In this document: positions 7,724 through 21,521 of the stretch, in pieces
How positions within the stretch are numbered: position 1 is the first letter of the stretch
Layout: each line of letters opens with the position of its first letter
Virus record (IMG/VR): IMGVR_UViG_3300031801_000025
Location: 1-22,533 of that record
Length of the DNA stretch: 22,533 nucleotides
Strand: one strand, 5' to 3'
From: a virus
Made by a program: the position numbers and the translations under genes
The notes under the pieces: model-generated
Databases searched by the model: none
Seen by the model: only the letters and a program-made list of their open reading frames with translations
Told to the model about the DNA's origin: nothing

Positions 7724-7751
7724 TTGACTTTCTCGCCAGGACTGATAGGAT
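7724..7751 (+). promoter_or_regulatory. Sigma70-like promoter with extended -10
   Basis: TTGACT at 7724-7729, a 16-base spacer, then TAGGAT at 7746-7751 preceded by TGA (extended -10, TGn). The predicted transcription start is near 7757-7759, just at an ATG. It opens the run of small genes after the glycosyltransferase block. Experimental support is absent. Confidence 0.55.
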
Positions 7752-7757
7752 AGTAGT

Positions 7758-7943
7758 ATGAATTTCACAATAAAGGCGACCGGAAACTTTGGGCTTTCTA
7801 GAAATGTTTTAGTTTTCCCTTTATGTGGTTTTCAGAGTAAAAACAACGAAAGGAACGAAAGCCCACTTAAAAAAACTAGTTGCCAAACGTCAAATAGTAT
7901 GATAGGATTAACCAATAATAACAAAGGATACACTAATGAGTAA
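7758..7943 (+). CDS. Possible small leader ORF (doubtful)
   Basis: 61 codons starting at the predicted transcript start of the 7724 promoter, with no room for a ribosome binding site, so it would have to be leaderless. The composition is Ser/Asn/Lys-rich, with no recognisable domain. Its end overlaps the next gene by eight bases. Because the same stretch contains a long-range inverted repeat and less AT-rich codons than its neighbours, an untranslated leader is at least as likely as a gene. Confidence 0.25.
   Translation: MNFTIKATGNFGLSRNVLVFPLCGFQSKNNERNESPLKKTSCQTSNSMIGLTNNNKGYTNE
7790..7865 (+). other. Inverted repeat in a structured 5' leader
   Basis: TGGGCTTTC (7790-7798) is perfectly complementary to GAAAGCCCA (7857-7865). 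Shorter complementary segments inside (GTTTT/AAAAC and CTTT/AAAG) could extend the fold. The element lies between the 7724 promoter and the first well-supported gene at 7936, leaving about 70 bases before its AAAGGA ribosome binding site. It could be a regulatory leader RNA; the fold has not been computed. Confidence 0.4.
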
Positions 7944-10177: not shown

Positions 10178-10330
10178 ATGCAGACAGCGAGAAAAAGCGT
10201 TCCTGGCGCATCCTGGCGCTTTCCAGGAGTGAAAAAACAAGTAAACAAAGGGTTTCCTGTAGGGTTGCCATTTATAAGGGTTTATGATAGCCTAATGAGA
10301 ATAAACAATATAACGGAAGGATTACAATGA
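10178..10330 (+). CDS. Possible small ORF over a GC-richer structured element
   Basis: 50 codons from ATG 10178, with AGAGGGGG nine bases upstream, ending in an ATGA overlap with the next gene, which is the usual coupling in this phage. The predicted peptide is basic (MQTARKSVPGASWRF...). However, its codons (GCG, GGC, CGC, TCC) are unlike those of neighbouring genes, and it spans tandem and inverted repeats and a possible promoter. It may therefore be an untranslated regulatory segment, or a recently acquired or dual-function element. Confidence 0.4.
   Translation: MQTARKSVPGASWRFPGVKKQVNKGFPVGLPFIRVYDSLMRINNITEGLQ
10194..10228 (+). repeat. Tandem 10-base repeat with competing hairpins
   Basis: TCCTGGCGCA (10201-10210) is followed directly by TCCTGGCGCT (10211-10220). 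Hairpin 1 pairs AAAGCG (10194-10199) with CGCTTT (10217-10222). Hairpin 2 pairs TCCTGG (10211-10216) with CCAGGA (10223-10228), with CGCTTT as its six-base loop; TCCTGG at 10201-10206 could also pair with CCAGGA. The two hairpins exclude each other, and hairpin 2 covers an AGGAG. No T-run follows, so this is not a simple intrinsic terminator. Confidence 0.5.
10265..10293 (+). promoter_or_regulatory. Weak sigma70-like promoter candidate
   Basis: TTGCCA (10265-10270), a 17-base spacer and TAGCCT (10288-10293), preceded by TGA as an extended -10 in the same TGATAG arrangement as the 7724 promoter. The transcript would start near 10300 and reach the GGAAGGA ribosome binding site of the gene at 10327. 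The match is poor, so the call depends on the similarity to 7724. Confidence 0.3.
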
Positions 10331-10713
10331 GTTTTAGATACGATAAAGAGAATTTATACAAAGAATTTGCAGACGCAAAGAAAAAAGATGTTGCTTTGTC
10401 CAAATTAAAAGACCAAGACGCCAAAGAAAACGATTATTTCACAAATAGAGTTAAATTTTGTGTAGATCATAAAGAACTAAAAATATCAAAACCACATTAT
10501 TATGAACATGTTAATGTTAACTTTGATAATTTAGAGATAGCTTATAGATCAACAAATCCTAGAGACCATTTTTATAAAACGGTTTTTGGAATGACTTATG
10601 CAGAAAAAATGGGACAAGAAAAAAGAGAACATGAAGCTACAGACCTTGGAGAATCTAAATCAGGATTGACAACTACGAAGAAAAAAGAAGAAATTCAAAG
10701 AGAGTGGTACTAG
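10327..10713 (+). CDS. Unknown charged protein
   Basis: 128 aa with GGAAGGA ahead of its ATG. Very rich in Lys, Glu and Asp. The middle contains FCVDHKELKISKPHYYEHV, and the C-terminal third (QEKREHEATDLGES...) is likely disordered. No signal peptide, membrane span or recognised motif. It is the first gene after the 10178-10330 element, and its stop overlaps a GTG start of a tiny membrane protein. Function unknown. Confidence 0.65.
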   Translation: MSFRYDKENLYKEFADAKKKDVALSKLKDQDAKENDYFTNRVKFCVDHKELKISKPHYYEHVNVNFDNLEIAYRSTNPRDHFYKTVFGMTYAEKMGQEKREHEATDLGESKSGLTTTKKKEEIQREWY

Positions 10714-10844
10714 TGAAAAGAAAAAGAAATAAATTAGAAAGAAAATTAGATGAGTATAATCACATAATGGAATTAATTAGAACTATACTTCCAATTGTGT
10801 TGTTAATAATGCAAACCATAATTTTAATAAAAGTGTTTAACTAA
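10713..10844 (+). CDS. Tiny single-span membrane protein
   Basis: 43 aa from a GTG that overlaps the upstream stop. A strongly basic N-terminus (KRKRNKLERKL) followed by one hydrophobic helix, about residues 23-42 (IRTILPIVLLIMQTIILIKV), predicts an inner-membrane protein with its N-terminus in the cytoplasm. It opens the exported/membrane protein run. Tiny single-span phage proteins are often superinfection-exclusion or holin-type factors, but nothing specific supports that here. Confidence 0.5.
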   Translation: MKRKRNKLERKLDEYNHIMELIRTILPIVLLIMQTIILIKVFN

Positions 10845-10884
10845 TTATATGAGAACAAATATAATAACTAACAAAGGAGAGAGC

Positions 10885-11139
10885 ATGAGAACAATGATGA
10901 TGTTAATGACCATAATTGGTTTAATGACAGCAACTATGGCAAAAAGTGATGAGAACACTAAAGTGACACTAAAAGAATTTGGTAAGTCAGTTTCAGAGGT
11001 TCCAATGAAGATTGGTAATCACTTGTCTATGGAAATTGAAAAAACTAAAAAGTTCCAAAAAGAAAATTGGGCTAAGGGTAAAATTCAATTAGCTAAAACA
11101 ATAGACCAAATAAAAGGATTGTTTAATATAAAACAGTAA
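10885..11139 (+). CDS. Small exported protein with signal peptide
   Basis: 84 aa from ATG 10885, chosen because AAAGGAGAG precedes it; an in-frame ATG at 10849 lacks a site and would spoil the signal peptide. Residues 1-19 (MRTMMMLMTIIGLMTATMA) look like a Sec signal with cleavage after TMA. The mature part is basic/amphipathic and helical (FGKSVSEVPMKIGNHLSMEIEK). It would be periplasmic in a Gram-negative host. It overlaps the following lipoprotein gene by one base (TAATG). Function unknown. Confidence 0.65.
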   Translation: MRTMMMLMTIIGLMTATMAKSDENTKVTLKEFGKSVSEVPMKIGNHLSMEIEKTKKFQKENWAKGKIQLAKTIDQIKGLFNIKQ

Positions 11140-11618
11140 TGATTAGAAATATACTAATATTATTAATCGGTTTAGCACTTACAAATTGTGCTTCTACAAA
11201 TAGATCACAAGTAGGAGCAGTTTTAGGTGCTACAACAACCACTGGTGCATGTCTTGAAATGGGAGTAAGTGATCCCTATGTTGTCGCTGGTTGTACTTTA
11301 GTTGGTGCATTTGCCGGTGCAGAAATTATGTATAATTCAGACTACGATGTACACAATGCTGTATTCGTAGATCATTTAAACAATGGTATTAATGGTTCTT
11401 CATATACTAATTGGTATAATAGTAAAACAGGAAATTCAGGCATAATTAAAATTACACGATCTTATATGGAAGGACCGTTTAAGTGTAAAGAATATGACGC
11501 TACAGTAGACATAACAAATAGATGGCCATTAATTGGTATAGGCGGTGTTAATAGAGAAGTTATATTTGGTACTGCTTGTCAATTACCAGATGGACGTTGG
11601 GTGGAGTTAAAACAATGA
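11139..11618 (+). CDS. Lipoprotein resembling the 17 kDa surface antigen family
   Basis: 159 aa. Signal MIRNILILLIGLALTNC with lipobox LTNC (acylated Cys17), then a Gly/Ala-rich stretch (GAVLGATTTTGACLE...VGAFAGAEIM) like the glycine-zipper segment of rickettsial-type 17 kDa surface antigens. The C-terminus FKCKEYDATVDI... and GTACQLPDGRWVEL matches that family's CREYxxTVxI...GTACRxPDGxW ending. This is an outer-membrane lipoprotein family typical of alphaproteobacteria, probably acquired from a host and expressed by the phage to modify the envelope. It overlaps both neighbouring genes by a few bases. Role unknown; surface or receptor masking is a guess. Confidence 0.75.
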   Translation: MIRNILILLIGLALTNCASTNRSQVGAVLGATTTTGACLEMGVSDPYVVAGCTLVGAFAGAEIMYNSDYDVHNAVFVDHLNNGINGSSYTNWYNSKTGNSGIIKITRSYMEGPFKCKEYDATVDITNRWPLIGIGGVNREVIFGTACQLPDGRWVELKQ

Positions 11619-11803
11619 TACATAAAGTAAGTGAACTATGTAAAAAGATTAATGGTATAAAAGCCATTAGTGATAGATTATATAAAATAAAATATAATAA
11701 AACAAAGTCACCAGAGCGTGACGCTGAAGTTGACAATATGATAGTAGATATACAATCACAATGTAAACTTGTAGCAAGTGATAAAGGAAATTATGGCGAA
11801 TAA
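11615..11803 (+). CDS. Small soluble protein of unknown function
   Basis: 62 aa from ATG 11615 (ATGA overlap with the lipoprotein stop). Charged and helical, with three Cys residues not in a metal motif pattern. No signal peptide, so it is a cytoplasmic protein in the middle of an exported cluster. An upstream in-frame start at 11576 lies inside the lipoprotein and has no ribosome binding site. Overlaps the next gene by 11 bases. Confidence 0.55.
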   Translation: MIHKVSELCKKINGIKAISDRLYKIKYNKTKSPERDAEVDNMIVDIQSQCKLVASDKGNYGE

Positions 11804-11960
11804 TACAACAATACAAAATCTTAAAAAAAGAAAAGATGAAATAAAGGACGAAATGGAATTTTCAGGTGAAACAAATACTTTAAATGACGAACTTTATGAA
11901 ATTAATGATACATTAACAAAGTTAGGATCAAATGACGAAACAACTAGACATATTAGCTAA
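11793..11960 (+). CDS. Small coiled-coil protein
   Basis: 55 aa from ATG 11793, with AAAGGAAA ahead. Nearly all helix-forming charged residues (NLKKRKDEIKDEMEF, LNDELYEINDTLTKL), with heptad-like spacing of Leu/Ile, suggest a short coiled coil. It overlaps the preceding gene by 11 bases and the next by about 29. No further clue to function. Confidence 0.55.
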   Translation: MANNTTIQNLKKRKDEIKDEMEFSGETNTLNDELYEINDTLTKLGSNDETTRHIS

Positions 11961-12084
11961 GTGTGTAATAATAGCAATGTTAGTTTGGTTAACTATATCA
12001 GTTAACAAAATAAACAAAAAAGTATTTCCAGATCCAAATATAATGATTCCTTTAGTACAAAAATTAGATTGGAGCAGAAATTAA
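11932..12084 (+). CDS. Small single-span membrane protein
   Basis: 50 aa from ATG 11932, preceded by TTAGGA six bases upstream. Residues about 5-25 (LDILAKCVIIAMLVWLTISV) are a hydrophobic N-terminal helix with little positive charge before it; a basic segment (NKINKKV) follows, and the tail contains PDPNIMIPLVQKLDW. Likely inner-membrane anchored. Starts inside the preceding gene in another frame. Function unknown. Confidence 0.5.
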   Translation: MTKQLDILAKCVIIAMLVWLTISVNKINKKVFPDPNIMIPLVQKLDWSRN

Positions 12085-12090
12085 TAAAAA

Positions 12091-12201
12091 ATGATAGAAA
12101 TATTTGAAATATTTTGGTCAGCACCTATAGAATTAAGAACTATAATCCTTGCAGGTATAGTTATGGGTGGTTATTTTATGTACAAGGAGAGAAATGAATA
12201 A
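12091..12201 (+). CDS. Tiny single-span membrane protein
   Basis: 36 aa from ATG 12091. Begins MIEIFEIFWSAPIEL and has one short hydrophobic helix (TIILAGIVMGGYFMY) near the C-terminus, ending in charged KERNE. Its stop overlaps the ATG of the next exported protein (12194), whose AAGGAGAG ribosome binding site is inside this gene. The start has no obvious binding site, only an A-run, so translation may depend on coupling. Function unknown. Confidence 0.45.
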   Translation: MIEIFEIFWSAPIELRTIILAGIVMGGYFMYKERNE

Positions 12202-12715
12202 AAAAGATTTTTTAATGGCCACAATTATTACCTTTTCTATATTGATGTTAATGGATGTTGCAAAATCAGATGTTGAAGGAGTGACAGCTGATTTAACAGG
12301 CAATGTTTTACCAATATCAGAGGTAAAATTAATATCATCTACAGAAGTATCATCTACAGTAGAAAAAACTATTGAAGTATTAGAGAAGATTGAACAAGTT
12401 GAAAAAGAAAAAGGTAAGGTTTATTACGATAAGATCACGACAATTGAACCAAAAAATGCCGCCGATCAATATTGTTATGTAAAAATTATTATCAAGCAAC
12501 AAGGCAATAATATAATAAAAGAAGAAACCCTTGAATGTGCTGATGGTAGGAAGAAAGTAGACGGTCCTAGTTATTGGGAACTGTTTGCTCAGTTTTACTA
12601 TAGAGACGTTGCAACACCAGAGTATTGCCGTTGGTATAGTAGAAAAAATCATGTTTTTAAGTCGTTCGGAAAAACATGTTTAAATAAGGACGGTGAATGG
12701 AAGGTAAAACAATGA
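12194..12715 (+). CDS. Exported protein with Cys-containing C-terminal domain
   Basis: 173 aa from ATG 12194, with AAGGAGAG immediately upstream. Residues 1-25 (MNKKDFLMATIITFSILMLM...) form a Sec signal, with probable cleavage around DVAKSD. The C-terminal 60 residues contain YCRWYS and GKTCLNKDGEWKV, a layout like the CREY...GxACxxPDGxW ending of 17 kDa surface-antigen-type proteins, with four Cys that could form disulfides in the periplasm. A central helical segment (VEKTIEVLEKIEQVEKE) may be a coiled coil. No lipobox, so it is soluble or membrane-anchored. It could be functionally paired with the lipoprotein at 11139. Confidence 0.6.
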   Translation: MNKKDFLMATIITFSILMLMDVAKSDVEGVTADLTGNVLPISEVKLISSTEVSSTVEKTIEVLEKIEQVEKEKGKVYYDKITTIEPKNAADQYCYVKIIIKQQGNNIIKEETLECADGRKKVDGPSYWELFAQFYYRDVATPEYCRWYSRKNHVFKSFGKTCLNKDGEWKVKQ

Positions 12716-12852
12716 TTAAAAACTTAATCATTTTATCTCTCTTATTCGTAGTAATCACTGGAATTTCAGCTGGTGAGTTTTTGGACTATGTACAAATGGG
12801 ACTTGACAAATTAGGCGAAATGGTGTATTCTATTAAGAGTGAGGTAAATTAA
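12712..12852 (+). CDS. Small exported or membrane-anchored protein
   Basis: 46 aa from ATG 12712 (ATGA overlap with the upstream stop, AAGG before it). MIKNLIILSLLFVVITGISA is a hydrophobic signal/anchor that could be cleaved after ISA; the remaining 26 residues look like an amphipathic helix (GEFLDYVQMGLDKLGEMV). The promoter at 12803 lies inside its 3' end. Such short peptides can sit on the periplasmic face of the inner membrane. Function unknown. Confidence 0.5.
   Translation: MIKNLIILSLLFVVITGISAGEFLDYVQMGLDKLGEMVYSIKSEVN
12803..12831 (+). promoter_or_regulatory. Sigma70-like promoter
   Basis: Consensus TTGACA (12803-12808), 17-base spacer, TATTCT (12826-12831). The transcript would start near 12838, about 20 bases before the LPP20-like lipoprotein gene at 12858, and would also drive the glutaredoxin gene. 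It lies within the preceding small gene. Confidence 0.55.
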
Positions 12853-12857
12853 AATAT

Positions 12858-13478
12858 ATGATGAAAAGTAAAATGAAGATATTACTAGTAGGAATTATGT
12901 CAGTATTGCTGACCAATTGTGCTGGTAACTATAAGATAAAATCAGAAAAAGGCAAAGTGTTAAATCAAGTACCAAAATGGTACATGGCCGATTTTTCTGA
13001 ATCAAAAGCATGTGACACGCCAAGATTTGGTAAAGAAAAAGATAAAATGTGTATCTTTGGAGTTGGTACTGCTGTATCGCCAGACCTTAATCTAGCAATA
13101 GAAAAAGGTATGATGATTGCAAAAGCAGAGTTAGCCGACATTATCAAAGGCGAAATGAATAAGTCTAGCAAACAATTCATAACTGAACTAGGAAAGAATA
13201 ATAACAAGACAACTGTATCAGAGGTTGAGTCTACAATAGTAAACTTAATTAAAGAAACACCAGTTAGAGGTTATGAAATCTTTGCTAAAGATGTCACAAT
13301 GACTAAAAATGGATATTACAGAGCTTGGATTGGCTTAAGATTGCCAATGGGTGAATACAATAAAATGTATAATTTCACTATTTCAGAAGCTGTAGATTCT
13401 TATAACGTTAAGATGAAAGCAGACGTAGCTTACGAAAACTTAATGAAAGAATCCAATGAAGATAGTAATATACAGTAA
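12858..13478 (+). CDS. LPP20-family-like lipoprotein
   Basis: 206 aa. Starts at the first of two consecutive ATGs (12858, 12861). A hydrophobic signal ends in the lipobox LLTNC, with acylated Cys21. The mature protein has the features of LPP20-type lipoproteins: VPKWYM near the N-terminus, CIFGVGTAVSPDLNLAIEKG followed by AKAELADIIKGEM, and GYYRAWIGLRLPMGEYNKM near the end. These proteins are outer-membrane or surface lipoproteins of unknown molecular role in Gram-negative bacteria. Its 3' end overlaps glutaredoxin by 23 bases. Presence in a phage suggests host-envelope modification. Confidence 0.7.
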   Translation: MMKSKMKILLVGIMSVLLTNCAGNYKIKSEKGKVLNQVPKWYMADFSESKACDTPRFGKEKDKMCIFGVGTAVSPDLNLAIEKGMMIAKAELADIIKGEMNKSSKQFITELGKNNNKTTVSEVESTIVNLIKETPVRGYEIFAKDVTMTKNGYYRAWIGLRLPMGEYNKMYNFTISEAVDSYNVKMKADVAYENLMKESNEDSNIQ

Positions 13479-13725
13479 AAACAATTGTCACTTTTGTACC
13501 AAGGCCAAAGAACTTTTAACTAAGCTTGGCCTTGAATACACAGAAAAAAAGATGGAAGATTTTTCGTCTGTTGACGCTATGTTAAAGGACATTGGTAAAA
13601 AAGTAAAATCAATGCCACAGGTGAAGATAGACGAGCAATTAATTGGTGGTTATAACCAACTGTTAGAGTATTTTGTAGAAGAAGGTAAGATAAATTTCAA
13701 AGGTGATATACTGAACGACCTATAA
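13456..13725 (+). CDS. Glutaredoxin
   Basis: 89 aa with a single glutaredoxin domain. The redox motif is CHFC (residues 11-14, where CPYC is usual), then the cis-proline loop SMPQVKID and the glutathione-binding IGGYNQL near residues 64-70. It would supply electrons to the C-terminal cysteines of phage NrdA, like T4 NrdC. The Pro-to-His substitution in the motif should alter redox potential. The start lies 23 bases inside the upstream lipoprotein gene, and it is transcribed from 12803 or from further upstream. Separated from nrdAB by about 11 kb. Confidence 0.9.
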   Translation: MKIVIYSKNNCHFCTKAKELLTKLGLEYTEKKMEDFSSVDAMLKDIGKKVKSMPQVKIDEQLIGGYNQLLEYFVEEGKINFKGDILNDL

Positions 13726-16315: not shown

Positions 16316-16349
16316 TTTTTAAGGGTGCGACATACCGTACCCTTAAAAA
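16316..16349 (+). terminator. Strong stem-loop, probable transcription terminator
   Basis: TTTTTAAGGGT (16316-16326) pairs perfectly with ACCCTTAAAAA (16339-16349); GCG/CGT adds three inner pairs including one G-U, leaving a six-base loop. It follows the 15780 gene and precedes the 16387 promoter. The T-run is in the 5' arm, and a second CCCTT followed by ATTTT (16351-16359) gives an alternative stem with a T-rich tail, so it may terminate in either direction. Confidence 0.65.
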
Positions 16350-16386
16350 ACCCTTATTTTACACGCTTTTTAAATATATTTTTCGC

Positions 16387-16415
16387 TTGACTATTATAGC
16401 GGTTTGGTATATAAT
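16387..16415 (+). promoter_or_regulatory. Near-consensus sigma70 promoter
   Basis: TTGACT (16387-16392), 17-base spacer, perfect TATAAT (16410-16415): the best promoter in the window. The start is expected near 16422, giving a 24-base leader with AGAAAGG before the ATG at 16446. AATAAATA (16413-16420), a T4-like late motif, overlaps the -10. It drives the envelope/lysis module. Confidence 0.8.
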
Positions 16416-16445
16416 AAATATATAAAAAGAAAGGTATATTATATT

Positions 16446-16778
16446 ATGAAAAAGTTTTTAGCGACAATATTGATAATCTGTAGCACATTATGGTTCGGTT
16501 TATCAAGTATAGCAAAGGCAGATGACTACACTAACGCAGTTATTGGCCATGTTATATCAGAAACTATTAAAAACAGTGACATTGACAACAAGGCTATCCT
16601 AGAAAGTGAACTAGAAAGACTTGGACACCTTTATGCTTTGGAAATGATTTCAGTTATACAGAAACATTTGCCATACATTTTAGATTCTGTAATGACAGAA
16701 TTAAGATTAAAGGCTGACCACGAGTATAAGTGTAAATTATTGGAAGATACTAAAGCGCTTGATAAAGATTGTATATAA
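16446..16778 (+). CDS. Small exported (periplasmic) protein
   Basis: 110 aa from ATG 16446, preferred because the 16404 in-frame start lies before the predicted transcript start. MKKFLATILIICSTLWFGLSSIAKA-DD is a textbook Sec signal with cleavage after AKA (residue 25). The mature part is helical (ETIKNSDIDNKAILESELERLGHL...MISVIQKHLPYILDSVMTEL) with two Cys near the C-terminus that could form a disulfide. First gene after the strongest promoter in the window, so probably abundant. No family recognised. Confidence 0.75.
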   Translation: MKKFLATILIICSTLWFGLSSIAKADDYTNAVIGHVISETIKNSDIDNKAILESELERLGHLYALEMISVIQKHLPYILDSVMTELRLKADHEYKCKLLEDTKALDKDCI

Positions 16779-16808
16779 TGATTAACTTAAACAGAGGAAA
16801 AGAGTTGT

Positions 16809-17240
16809 ATGTTAAGAAAATCAGTAAAGTCAAAGATCACCAAAACTAAAAGGATCATTCAGATAGACCTTAAAAATCAAAGAAGAAAATATAAAACAAC
16901 TTACAATGATATTAAGAAATATTTTATTATGCTTAATGAACTAATTTTTGACAACAAGTTATCTCCGTTTAACAAGGTAATGATTAAACAGATCAGAGAT
17001 CACGAAAGAAAAGAAAAAATATACGGTCAAGTATTAACTTATGATTGGGCTAGACGTGGAACTAGAGAATATCAACTCCATATGAGACCTTACTACACTA
17101 ATAAAAAAGAATTTGCATGTACTTTGGCACACGAAATGGTACATTTATATCAGATGGTCAACGAAGGCGATACTGGTAACCATAACGCCTTGTTTTATAG
17201 TTACCGAACAAAATTAAATAGAATAGGATTGGATTTATAA
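16809..17240 (+). CDS. SprT-like zinc metalloprotease
   Basis: 143 aa. Zinc-binding HEMVH (residues 108-112) in FACTLAHEMVHLYQM, with a third ligand candidate H125 in TGNHNALFYSYRTKLNRIG; this is the HExxH...H layout of the SprT/Spartan family. The N-terminal basic region and the FIMLNELIFDNKL helix also match SprT-like proteins. In cells such proteases clear DNA-protein crosslinks. In the phage it may remove proteins from replicating DNA, or act on host proteins. It has an AGAGGAAAAGAG ribosome binding site and overlaps the next gene by one base (TAATG). No signal peptide, so cytoplasmic. Confidence 0.85.
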   Translation: MLRKSVKSKITKTKRIIQIDLKNQRRKYKTTYNDIKKYFIMLNELIFDNKLSPFNKVMIKQIRDHERKEKIYGQVLTYDWARRGTREYQLHMRPYYTNKKEFACTLAHEMVHLYQMVNEGDTGNHNALFYSYRTKLNRIGLDL

Positions 17241-17551
17241 TGAGTGAAATGACGAGAAGGAAAGTGAAAGAACTTGACCCTTACCTGAAAGGCAGAGTAG
17301 GTGAGGCGTTGATACAATTAGAACAATTGAAGAAACCATCAAATCTACCAGGTACAACAAAAACTTATTACACTGGTAATTGGGCTAAAGACGTGTATGA
17401 TAATTTTACAGATAAACAGGCAGCTGTTATATTTACTAAAGTTGCAAAAATGAAAGAAGGATTATCTTTATATCAATCCAAATTAGAATCATTTACAGAT
17501 GAAGAAGGAAAAGAATGGGTCGGATACGATTACATAGCGAGGAAACTATGA
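17240..17551 (+). CDS. Unknown protein coupled to the SprT-like protease
   Basis: 103 aa starting on the last base of the SprT stop. Contains GRVGEALIQLEQLKKPSNLPG and YYTGNWAKDVYDNFTDKQAAVIF, a mostly helical soluble protein with no signal or membrane span. Its 3' end overlaps the lysin start by four bases (ATGA), so it is translated between a protease and a wall hydrolase. No family recognised; a regulator or substrate adaptor would fit the position, but there is no direct evidence. Confidence 0.6.
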   Translation: MSEMTRRKVKELDPYLKGRVGEALIQLEQLKKPSNLPGTTKTYYTGNWAKDVYDNFTDKQAAVIFTKVAKMKEGLSLYQSKLESFTDEEGKEWVGYDYIARKL

Positions 17552-18120
17552 AAACAATAAAGACAATAGGAAGAACTTTAATGTTTGTAGTAATAGTTAT
17601 AGCTTGTGTATTTACTTTACACTTTTATAAGAAACAAGCAATGGCTGATGTGCCAATACAACCTAATTTTGAATATACAAACAATGAACAATTTTTACAA
17701 AATGTGAATCAATGTGTAGATTTTGTTTACTTTTATGACAGGACACTTGAAATGGTGGATTTAGATTTATTATTAGCTCAAGCGGCTCTAGAGTCGGGTT
17801 GGGGAAATAGTAGGTTTGCTAGAGTAGGTAAAAACCTATTTGGTATGAGAACCTATGATTTACAAGAACCACATATGTTGCCTTCAAACAGTCCTAAAAA
17901 ATGGGGAGTTAAGGTATACCAACACGAGTGTGATAGTGTTGCTCACTATATTAAAACTTTAAATAATCATACTTTATATGAAAAATATAGAGAACTATTG
18001 GCCACAGGTGCAGATAGTTTACTTTTGGTAGATACGCTTGAAGCATATGCTACTGATAAAGATTATTTTTGGAAAGTTAAAAGTATTATTAAAAAGATAA
18101 GAAAAGACTATAGGGACTAA
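17548..18120 (+). CDS. Membrane-anchored endo-beta-N-acetylglucosaminidase (Bax/FlgJ-like), candidate endolysin
   Basis: 190 aa from ATG 17548 (ATGA overlap with the upstream gene); a longer start at 17515 would put 11 polar residues before the anchor. Residues about 9-27 (RTLMFVVIVIACVFTLHFY) form an N-terminal span, then KKQAMAD looks like a possible signal peptidase site, so it is either a signal-anchor-release or a cleaved exported enzyme. The catalytic domain carries LLAQAALESGWGNSRFARV (E82 is the predicted acid) and NLFGMRTY, the hallmark of GH73/Bax glucosaminidases that cleave peptidoglycan glycan strands; KWGVKVYQHECDSVAHYI follows. Expected to act in the periplasm as the lysis enzyme or in local wall remodelling. 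T4 uses a different fold (gp e). Confidence 0.85.
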   Translation: MKTIKTIGRTLMFVVIVIACVFTLHFYKKQAMADVPIQPNFEYTNNEQFLQNVNQCVDFVYFYDRTLEMVDLDLLLAQAALESGWGNSRFARVGKNLFGMRTYDLQEPHMLPSNSPKKWGVKVYQHECDSVAHYIKTLNNHTLYEKYRELLATGADSLLLVDTLEAYATDKDYFWKVKSIIKKIRKDYRD

Positions 18121-18121
18121 T

Positions 18122-19051
18122 ATGTTCTTAATTTTATTAACATTTATAACAGCTATTTCTATATCTGTAATAGCCGCTGGTTATTCTATTGTAGGATTGG
18201 CAACTCTATTCGCAGGTGCTGTTGTACCTATTATTGCAATGGGTAGTGCTTTAGAAGTTGGTAAATTAGTGGCCGCTACTTGGCTATATCATAATTGGCG
18301 CTCAGATATACCTAGAATTTTAAAAACATATCTGTTTATAGCAATTATAGTATTAGTATTCATAACCTCTATGGGTATCTTTGGTTTCCTATCAAAGGCA
18401 CACCTAGATCAAGTTAAACCAATATCTGGTAATAATATTAAGATAGAATTATTAGATAAACGAATTAATCAACAAAATTTAATCGTAGTACGAGCAGAAA
18501 AACAATTAGAATTATTAGATAAGGCATTAGAAGTCTATATAGACAAAGAATATGTGACTCGTGGACTTAAAGAAAGAAAGGCACAAAAAGAAGAAAGAGA
18601 CCTTTTAAATGAGGCAATCTATAGTGCAAGTGATGAGATTGCAATTTTAATAACTGAAAAATCAGTTTTAGCATTAGAACAAGATAAGATAGAGGCCGAA
18701 GTAGGACCTATTAAATATATTGCTGAATTAATATATGGAGAACAGGCAAAAGACCATTTTGATGAGGCTGTTAGGTGGGTTATAGTAGTATTAATATTTG
18801 TATTTGATCCATTAGCAGTATTACTATTGATAGCGGCTAATATATCATTGAAACAAAGATCAATGAAAAAACAACTAACACTATCTGTAAAGAAAGAAAA
18901 TTTAGAAAGAAAAATAGCCAGATTGATAAGAAATAATAAGTATTTAAAACGTTATAGAAATGTGGTAAAAGACTATGACATGAGTCCAGATGAGATTAGG
19001 TTAAAGTTAAACCAAATAGTGAATTTAGATGATAAGAATAAAAATAATTAG
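18122..19051 (+). CDS. Multi-span coiled-coil membrane protein, recurrent in T4-like marine phages
   Basis: 309 aa. Hydrophobic segments at about 3-22, 26-55, 69-91 and 218-241; between 100 and 195 a long charged helical region (RAEKQLELLDKALEVYI..., DEIAILITEKSVLALEQDK) predicts a coiled coil. EVGPIKYIAELIYGE leads into the last span (RWVIVVLIFVFDPLAVLLL). The early segment MGSALEVGKLVAATWLYHNWR and ITSMGIFGFLSKAH recur in marine myovirus proteins as I remember them; the function is not known to me. With three N-terminal spans the coiled coil would face one side of the membrane. It follows the candidate lysin by one base and overlaps the next lipoprotein gene by 23 bases, a layout reminiscent of a spanin pair or holin partner. 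Confidence 0.7.
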   Translation: MFLILLTFITAISISVIAAGYSIVGLATLFAGAVVPIIAMGSALEVGKLVAATWLYHNWRSDIPRILKTYLFIAIIVLVFITSMGIFGFLSKAHLDQVKPISGNNIKIELLDKRINQQNLIVVRAEKQLELLDKALEVYIDKEYVTRGLKERKAQKEERDLLNEAIYSASDEIAILITEKSVLALEQDKIEAEVGPIKYIAELIYGEQAKDHFDEAVRWVIVVLIFVFDPLAVLLLIAANISLKQRSMKKQLTLSVKKENLERKIARLIRNNKYLKRYRNVVKDYDMSPDEIRLKLNQIVNLDDKNKNN

Positions 19052-19331
19052 TGTAATATTATTGCTCGTGGCATTGAATGGGTGTGGAACCCTACCAGCG
19101 TGGATTGGTACAAGTGCAGGTACATATGAAACGTATAAGACAATAACATTTACAAAAACAGGTGTAGACGTGGCTTTAGCGGCTAATGATATGCCTACAA
19201 CCAACGATGTTGCTTTATCAAAGATAACTGGTTACGATTGTAAAGTAAGTAGAATGTTAGATGAAGGATTACATGCGGTTTGCAAAGAAATAAAATATCA
19301 ATATCACCCGAGGCTTGACAAAGATAAGTAA
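19029..19331 (+). CDS. Small lipoprotein overlapping the membrane-protein gene
   Basis: 100 aa. Signal MIRIKIISVILLLVALNGC with lipobox ALNGC (acylated Cys19). The mature part GTLPAWIGTSAGTYETYKTITFTKTG, then ALAANDMPTTNDVALSKITGYDCKVSRMLDEG, with two Cys (GYDC, HAVC) that could form a disulfide, resembles small outer-membrane lipoproteins of proteobacteria. It starts 23 bases inside the preceding gene. As an outer-membrane partner to a coiled-coil inner-membrane protein it could act like an o-spanin, but it is larger than Rz1-type spanins and this is inference. Confidence 0.7.
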   Translation: MIRIKIISVILLLVALNGCGTLPAWIGTSAGTYETYKTITFTKTGVDVALAANDMPTTNDVALSKITGYDCKVSRMLDEGLHAVCKEIKYQYHPRLDKDK

Positions 19332-19343: not shown

Positions 19344-19535
19344 ATAATGATGGCACCGATAGATATAGAAAGAATAACTGAAGGAAAATACAAGGTTGAA
19401 AGACTTATAAACAATGCTGTTAGAGCTTGTAAAAACTCTACCGAAGATTGGGCTAAGACCTTTTGGCATGGTGTATTTGTTAAGTTGTGTAAAAAATATA
19501 ACAGAGAAGATTTGTATAATAAAAATTTACATTAA
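19332..19535 (+). CDS. Small soluble protein of unknown function
   Basis: 67 aa from ATG 19332; alternatives at 19347 and 19350 would fit the predicted start of the 19315 transcript, with DIERITEGKYKVERLINNAV following. Contains helical segments (NNAVRACKNSTEDWAKTFWHGVFVKL), no signal or membrane span, two Cys. Ends with an overlap (TAATG) to the next gene. No family recognised. The true start is uncertain because the promoter's -10 lies inside the longest version. Confidence 0.55.
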   Translation: MRYSIMMAPIDIERITEGKYKVERLINNAVRACKNSTEDWAKTFWHGVFVKLCKKYNREDLYNKNLH

Positions 19536-19723
19536 TGATTATTAAAATTGCAGTATTATTAAACTCTATTTGTATAATATTGATGTTGTTTATGTTATCA
19601 AAACAGTATGCTGATATGAGTACTTTATGGGATACTGTAATGGAAATAGATATTATGTTTAACGATATTATTGATAAAATTAAAAATGAAAGAGAAGGAG
19701 TTAAAATACTATGGGTAAAATAA
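19535..19723 (+). CDS. Small N-terminally anchored membrane protein
   Basis: 62 aa. Residues 2-22 (IIKIAVLLNSICIILMLFML) form one hydrophobic helix with few charges in front. The remainder (SKQYADMSTLWDTVMEIDIM and a charged end) looks helical. The overlap with the upstream stop (TAATG) suggests coupling, and its 3' end overlaps the next lipoprotein gene by 13 bases. An anchored periplasmic or cytoplasmic helix is likely; function unknown. Confidence 0.55.
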   Translation: MIIKIAVLLNSICIILMLFMLSKQYADMSTLWDTVMEIDIMFNDIIDKIKNEREGVKILWVK

Positions 19724-19893
19724 TGACGTTTTTATTATTACTTTTTGTAATTGCAGCCTGTTCTGGAAAAGAAATATCATTTGGTAAGAAATGTATGGAA
19801 AAAGATGACCATATAGTTTATTCTTACATATGGTTTACTGAAAAAGAACACCCAGCTGATACAGAAACTTGTAAAAAAATAGAGAAAAAGTAA
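19711..19893 (+). CDS. Very small lipoprotein
   Basis: 60 aa with AGAAGGAG ten bases before the ATG. Signal MGKIMTFLLLLFVIAAC with lipobox VIAAC (acylated Cys17). The mature part is 44 residues, with two further Cys (KKC, ETC) that could pair, and is charged. Such tiny lipoproteins in phages can be o-spanins or exclusion factors; here there is no adjacent i-spanin-like partner other than the small anchored protein just upstream, which overlaps it by 13 bases, so the two may work together. Confidence 0.65.
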   Translation: MGKIMTFLLLLFVIAACSGKEISFGKKCMEKDDHIVYSYIWFTEKEHPADTETCKKIEKK

Positions 19894-21311: not shown

Positions 21312-21521
21312 ATGCTTAGAAACATAACTTTATTCTTAATGTTATTAACAATTACAGTTGTGTTATTAAGTGGTTGTAGTACAAAAAATAAACACTATTG
21401 TACAGACGATGGATGTCCAGATTTTTATAAAGAGGAACCTGAACTGACTGCAATGGAGAAATTTTTTGATTGTTTAGGTGACAGTAGCAAGTGTAAAGAT
21501 ATAAAGAATAGTGATAACTGA
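21312..21521 (+). CDS. Small cysteine-rich lipoprotein
   Basis: 69 aa. Signal MLRNITLFLMLLTITVVLLSGC with lipobox LLSGC (acylated Cys22). The mature part has four more Cys (HYC, DGC, FDC, SKC) in TKNKHYCTDDGCPDF... and is acidic; these may form two disulfides in the periplasm or outer membrane. It overlaps the SufE-like gene by 11 bases. The fifth lipoprotein encoded in the window. Confidence 0.65.
   Translation: MLRNITLFLMLLTITVVLLSGCSTKNKHYCTDDGCPDFYKEEPELTAMEKFFDCLGDSSKCKDIKNSDN

Follow-up and report, generated by a model that had tools for sequence, protein, structure and literature searches.

The window analysed here, a 22,533-nucleotide (22.5 kb) virus fragment (positions 1 to 22,533 of IMG/VR record IMGVR_UViG_3300031801_000025), comes from a pelagimyophage, a T4-like phage of SAR11, and carries a cassette of small genes flanked by a DUF3310 gene on one side and a glutaredoxin gene on the other. 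Comparative sequence evidence identified SP84, LP159, SP173, SP46 and LP206, genes for exported proteins (SP84, SP173), lipoproteins (LP159, LP206) and a bitopic membrane protein (SP46), as one conserved operon core. We tentatively propose, with a probability of roughly 0.4, that this operon installs an outer-membrane remodelling complex early in the infected cell, the likeliest benefit being exclusion of competing phages. At the level of sequence, the reality of the genes, the conservation of the lipoboxes and of the operon, the promoter type and the LPP20 fold of LP206 were established.

Among annotated phages, the window was closest to Pelagibacter phage Mosig EXVC030M and next closest to HTVC008M. 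Both are T4-like Kyanoviridae of SAR11, and in each of them a counterpart cluster lies directly ahead of the glutaredoxin gene. The window contained no Rfam match and no tRNA.

Envelope signals, conservation and timing of the operon

An earlier note on the window had described a dense run of exported, lipid-anchored and tiny membrane proteins, and such a run was found: between 10704 and 13478, 8/10 genes encode a lipoprotein, an exported protein or a single-span protein, compared to 15.5% genome-wide in Mosig and HTVC008M (binomial P = 1e-5, uncorrected for the choice of stretch). Classes were called with a simple signal and lipobox classifier that uses a crude cleavage rule. Envelope genes numbered 0/18 in the first 10.7 kb of the window and 17/35 in the rest (Fisher P = 1.5e-4); because the entire second half of the window is envelope-rich, shuffling gene order within the window alone did not single out the cluster as exceptional (P = 0.27). 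The two lipoproteins, three tiny membrane proteins (46, 50 and 36 amino acids at 10704, 11932 and 12091) and two small soluble proteins (64 and 55 amino acids at 11609 and 11793) of the note were all present. Its three signal-peptide proteins were reduced to two. The signal peptides of SP84 and SP173 fit by eye; the classifier cut SP84 a few residues too soon and saw in SP173 just a hydrophobic N-terminus. SP46 is better described as an uncleaved single-span membrane protein, since its cleavage site is lost in relatives ('SAGEF' becoming 'SPVEF' or 'SWEEF').

The lipobox was kept in 54/54 homologues of LP159 and 152/153 homologues of LP206, and the lipid-acceptor cysteine was invariant in both alignments, in which the remaining signal peptide is variable. 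Both window proteins carry asparagine at position -1, a relaxed lipobox that calls for caution; this residue is alanine or glycine in the LP206 of Mosig and in the HTVC008M homologues. Under the Lol rule of E. coli, a +2 residue other than aspartate directs sorting to the outer membrane. Aspartate occurred at +2 in none of the LP159 and LP206 homologues, and outer-membrane sorting is therefore predicted for both proteins. The ratio of non-synonymous to synonymous substitution rates (dN/dS) was 0.13–0.26 across the cassette genes and 0.5 for the 55-amino-acid gene, with too few pairs for the 36-amino-acid gene; by this measure most cassette genes are under purifying selection.

Loci were collected from IMG/VR by searching for the 206-amino-acid lipoprotein with the window protein (best 80 of 259 relatives), with its HTVC008M counterpart (25 relatives) and with that of Methylophilales phage Melnitz (best 80 of 125), which infects gammaproteobacterial OM43. 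The three full lists may overlap, and as contigs were recruited via LP206 and two lists comprise the best 80, close relatives are over-represented. Presence of a gene was counted among the contigs covering its position. The core genes and the glutaredoxin gene recurred in window-type loci as given in Table 1, and HTVC008M-type loci contained LP159 (16/16), SP173 (18/18), a 38-amino-acid counterpart of SP46 (21/21) and glutaredoxin (22/22). Melnitz-type loci contained the exported gp74 (60/60) and a 45-amino-acid SP46 counterpart (65/65), with an endolysin directly downstream in 64/65. In each of the three clades the gene immediately ahead of LP206 is SP46 or its counterpart, and the pair is retained in phages of the unrelated OM43 hosts as well as of SAR11. 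Of the many small parts suggested in the earlier note, the core genes belong together, and TM46, TM50 and TM36 are optional extras (Table 1).

Within the phage record collection, LP206 relatives were confined to Mosig, two records of HTVC008M and four Melnitz strains. A scan of bacterial genomes with just two short peptide patterns, which cannot establish absence of LP206 from bacteria, gave a lone match in phage-like DNA within an Opitutia metagenome-assembled genome. The matching contig (L196, 4655-5573) resembles T4-like phage DNA and encodes an SP84-like exported protein ahead of its LP206 relative.

In 34/35 distinct homologous sequences, the first gene is closely preceded by an extended -10 sigma70-type promoter (TTG[AC]NN, a spacer and TGNTANNNT), compared to a background of 2.4% of random 100-mers. 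The T4 late motif TATAAATA was strongly biased to the coding strand in both isolates (27 vs 3 and 20 vs 1 copies on the opposite strand), with many copies shortly upstream of structural genes according to the isolate gene tables. No copy was found upstream of or inside the cassette in the three clades, apart from one that most HTVC008M-type loci have towards the 3' end of LP206, ahead of glutaredoxin; window-type loci next show the motif ~2.5 kb downstream of LP206. Cyanophages use CTAAATA as a late-promoter variant. This variant was absent from the cassette of the two pelagiphage clades and present in some Melnitz-type loci. Because the early-type promoter is conserved and late motifs are absent upstream, the cassette is probably expressed early.

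Predicted folds of the lipoproteins and their exported neighbour

Structure models were built from window and IMG/VR locus sequences. The LP206 model (mean predicted local distance difference test score, pLDDT, 70; core ~80-90) matched Helicobacter pylori Lpp20 (5ok8) as its top PDB entry, with a Foldseek probability of 1.00 and a VIA-align Z of 9.0 over 95 residues (root-mean-square deviation 2.6), and its best BFVD matches included proteins of other phages that are named LPP20 lipoproteins. The LPP20 profile PF02169 did not match window LP206 and matched 2/13 members (best E = 0.0045), short of its curated cut-off. Thus the modelled fold of LP206 is LPP20, though the sequence profile barely detects the family. 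LP206 shares its lipoprotein nature and fold with the known LPP20 lipoproteins (H. pylori Lpp20/HP1456, Campylobacter phage CP8, uncultured phages) but differs from them in this faint profile signal and in belonging to a fixed phage operon, where the gene of a bitopic protein precedes it.

LP159 was modelled less confidently (pLDDT 62) as a signal helix, two helices and a beta domain. PF16998 (17 kDa surface antigen) matched it in 20/20 members (best E = 2e-5), with scores short of the curated cut-off; window LP159 reached 17.3 bits, the cut-off being 26.6. Foldseek gave no clear match for the model. The best VIA-align rows, all over the helices, were a chain of the Dot/Icm outer-membrane cap, SlyB and TraT, at Z values of 5.7-7.0, a range in which a common arrangement may explain the likeness. 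SlyB (7ojf) aligned over 46 residues (Z 6.1), and TraT over residues 12-66, the helices alone (Z 5.7); a SlyB/TraT-like helical hairpin in LP159 is possible on the model. LP159 resembles the PF16998 family and SlyB in having a lipobox, two helices and a beta domain; it differs in its sub-cut-off profile score, in being phage-encoded and probably early, and in that the helices are missing from the HTVC008M homologue. TraT, the surface-exclusion lipoprotein of F-type plasmids (9fs5, PMC11733297), resembles LP159 as predicted in being an outer-membrane lipoprotein of a mobile element with membrane helices, and entry exclusion is the benefit proposed for the cassette too, but the structural match between them is weak and TraT targets conjugation.

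SP173 contains four invariant cysteines, could be assigned to no solved fold and showed weak PF16998 matches in 8/25 members. Common ancestry of its C-terminus with that of LP159 was considered and was not supported by profile comparison (probability 8%).

Proposed function of the cassette and competing explanations

From these features we infer the localisation of the products, the formation of a complex and its benefit. The early operon would install the complex in the envelope, where LP159 and LP206 would receive their lipid and reach the outer membrane. LP159 may insert a short helical hairpin there in the fashion of SlyB and TraT, and LP206 would contribute a periplasmic domain of the LPP20 type. 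SP46, bitopic and encoded immediately ahead of LP206 in each clade, is the likely inner-membrane partner, and SP84 and SP173, the latter probably stabilised by disulfides, would be exported partners. Present from early on and kept through infection, the complex would alter or stabilise the outer membrane, and the likeliest gain would be that competing phages are stopped at adsorption or DNA entry. Under stress, SlyB guards the outer membrane and its proteins (PMC13067283), and TraT keeps a second plasmid from entering (PMC11733297), so protection and exclusion are both plausible. A bolder version, which we regard as speculative and improbable, is a trans-envelope exclusion machine in which an oligomeric SlyB/TraT-like and LPP20 outer-membrane assembly with an inner-membrane anchor of 38-48 amino acids, made from the early operon, guards SAR11 and OM43 cells against competing phages.

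Several observations weigh against a remodelling and exclusion role. Profile searches matched no cassette protein to a known exclusion protein or defence family, and the Cor superinfection-exclusion profile gave no cassette match. Early timing is read from motifs alone, both lipoprotein models are of middling confidence, the two-helix likeness to SlyB and TraT (Z 5.7-6.1) is perhaps a common arrangement, and the HTVC008M LP159 has no hairpin. An exported endolysin also lies directly downstream in Melnitz-type phages. Thus, of the envelope-remodelling or exclusion system suggested in the earlier note, a conserved, envelope-directed core operon with an early-type promoter was recovered, which fits such a system; exclusion found no family match, and the Melnitz endolysin leaves a lysis role open.

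The main rival is a lysis module, in which SP46 and LP206 would pair in the manner of spanins while LP159 and SP173 assist in breaching the outer membrane as infection ends. The gene order is that of two-component spanins, a bitopic inner-membrane protein followed by an outer-membrane lipoprotein in all clades; the hydrolase directly next in 64/65 Melnitz-type loci is an exported cell-wall enzyme, and no other obvious spanin was found. We nevertheless consider this role doubtful. With only ~25 residues beyond the membrane, SP46 is too short for the periplasm-spanning coil of a normal spanin, LP206 is a globular LPP20 domain, and no cassette protein matched a spanin family. The promoter is of the early type with no late motif upstream, and a separate glucosaminidase endolysin operon with a late-type promoter is encoded downstream. 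Somewhat less probable is a maintenance role, in which the proteins would preserve the host outer membrane over a long infection as a SlyB-like guard without an anti-phage role. Early expression is compatible with such maintenance, and the LP159 helices resemble those of the outer-membrane guard SlyB (PMC13067283), but at the level of fold and over two helices only. Deletion of H. pylori Lpp20 caused no outer-membrane barrier defect (PMC11756786), which advises caution about any function in envelope protection.

The same phages carry the published pelagimyophage csgF-csgG operon, which likewise contains envelope genes including CsgG, an outer-membrane pore lipoprotein (PMC7029224, PMC9004378). 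That the cassette aids this pore as a curli accessory is very improbable and was rejected on genome place and promoter type: the genes differ, csgF-csgG of HTVC008M lies at 7.6-8.9 kb and the cassette at 135.8-137.5 kb, csgF has a late motif just upstream, unlike the cassette, and no cassette protein matched CsgG. In HTVC008M (L088, 7549-8887), the position of TATAAATA suggests by motif a late timing for the curli-like csgF-csgG operon. A defence system was rejected as well, PADLOC having returned a single weak and implausible match to a CARF/HEPN model. Neither PHROGs nor NCBIfam yielded a useful match for the cassette, and profile searches of PDB sequences with its proteins gave chance matches only.

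SAR11 is among Earth's most abundant bacterial groups. If the remodelling and exclusion reading is true, a fixed, early operon altering the outer membrane would be a concrete candidate for superinfection control by its phages. The LPP20 lipoprotein of the operon occurs in all cultured pelagimyophages and in Melnitz, and LPP20 lipoproteins and lipoproteins resembling the 17 kDa antigen gain a conserved place in phages. No description of the conserved operon with its early promoter was found in the open-licence papers searched; the component folds are already known.

Gene inventory and neighbouring genes

The features of the cassette are collected in Table 1. The ATG of SP84 is preceded by a ribosome-binding site, AAAGGAGAG. 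The glutaredoxin that ends the unit probably serves ribonucleotide reductase, outside the envelope machinery.

Table 1. Features of the cassette in window coordinates; locus counts refer to window-type loci unless stated.
Feature	Coordinates	Strand	Evidence
Extended -10 sigma70-type (early) promoter, TTGCCA-N17-TAGCCT, TG ahead of -10	10265..10293	+	upstream of operon
First gene behind promoter, 128-amino-acid predicted soluble protein	10327..10713	+	open reading frame; 40/40 covering loci
TM46, 46-amino-acid single-span protein, optional	10704..10844	+	transmembrane prediction; 8/44 loci; dN/dS 0.18
SP84, 84-amino-acid exported protein, core; signal end ...TMA/KS; mature part helical, charged	10885..11139	+	43/45 loci; alignment; dN/dS 0.26
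LP159, predicted outer-membrane lipoprotein, core; lipobox LTNC17; modelled two-helix hairpin and beta domain	11139..11618	+	46/46 loci; lipobox 54/54
Small soluble 64-amino-acid protein, start ~11615	11609..11803	+	34/49 loci; dN/dS 0.19
Small soluble coiled 55-amino-acid protein	11793..11960	+	34/51 loci; dN/dS 0.5
TM50, 50-amino-acid single-span protein, optional	11932..12084	+	19/51 loci; dN/dS 0.19
TM36, 36-amino-acid single-span protein, optional	12091..12201	+	5/54 loci
SP173, exported protein, core; four invariant cysteines, GPxYWxLFAQFYY motif	12194..12715	+	55/55 loci; alignment; dN/dS 0.15
SP46, 46-amino-acid bitopic membrane protein, core; amphipathic C-terminal helix	12712..12852	+	58/58 loci; dN/dS 0.15
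LP206, predicted outer-membrane lipoprotein, core; LPP20 fold (model); lipobox LTNC21	12858..13478	+	lipobox 152/153; dN/dS 0.13
Glutaredoxin, cytoplasmic, last gene of unit	13456..13725	+	constant neighbour in the two pelagiphage clades (60/60; 22/22)

Outside the cassette, lipoboxes at 19029, 19711 and 21312 also checked out, so the earlier count of at least five lipoproteins in the window is plausible. Their treatment as one system failed: these three genes lie outside the operon, and a probable late endolysin operon precedes the one at 19029. The unit at 16316-19331 comprises an exported 110-amino-acid protein (16446), SprT, a membrane-anchored glucosaminidase (PF01832, 2e-17; PHROG endolysin, 1e-17), a multi-span coiled protein and the lipoprotein at 19029. 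A strong terminator-like stem-loop (16316-16349) lies upstream, the start of the unit is close to a late-type AATAAATA, and by these sequence features it is probably a late lysis operon.

At 19535-19893, a 62-amino-acid single-span protein overlaps the 60-amino-acid lipoprotein (19711) in a spanin-like layout, with relatives of the lipoprotein in 8 contigs. The 69-amino-acid lipoprotein at 21312-21521 has relatives in 14 contigs and weak PHROG matches to Cor superinfection exclusion (E = 0.028) and to an Rz-like spanin (E = 0.073). Melnitz gp77 (L004, 9540-10067) is an exported cell-wall hydrolase by its matches (PF07486, 1e-21; PHROG endolysin, 2e-22), contrary to the Melnitz paper, in which lysin-like genes other than gp67 are lacking (PMC9004378). 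Two further extended -10 matches like the one ahead of the cassette were located at 7724-7910 of the window, upstream of small genes, and suggest by motif that an early region begins at ~7.7 kb.

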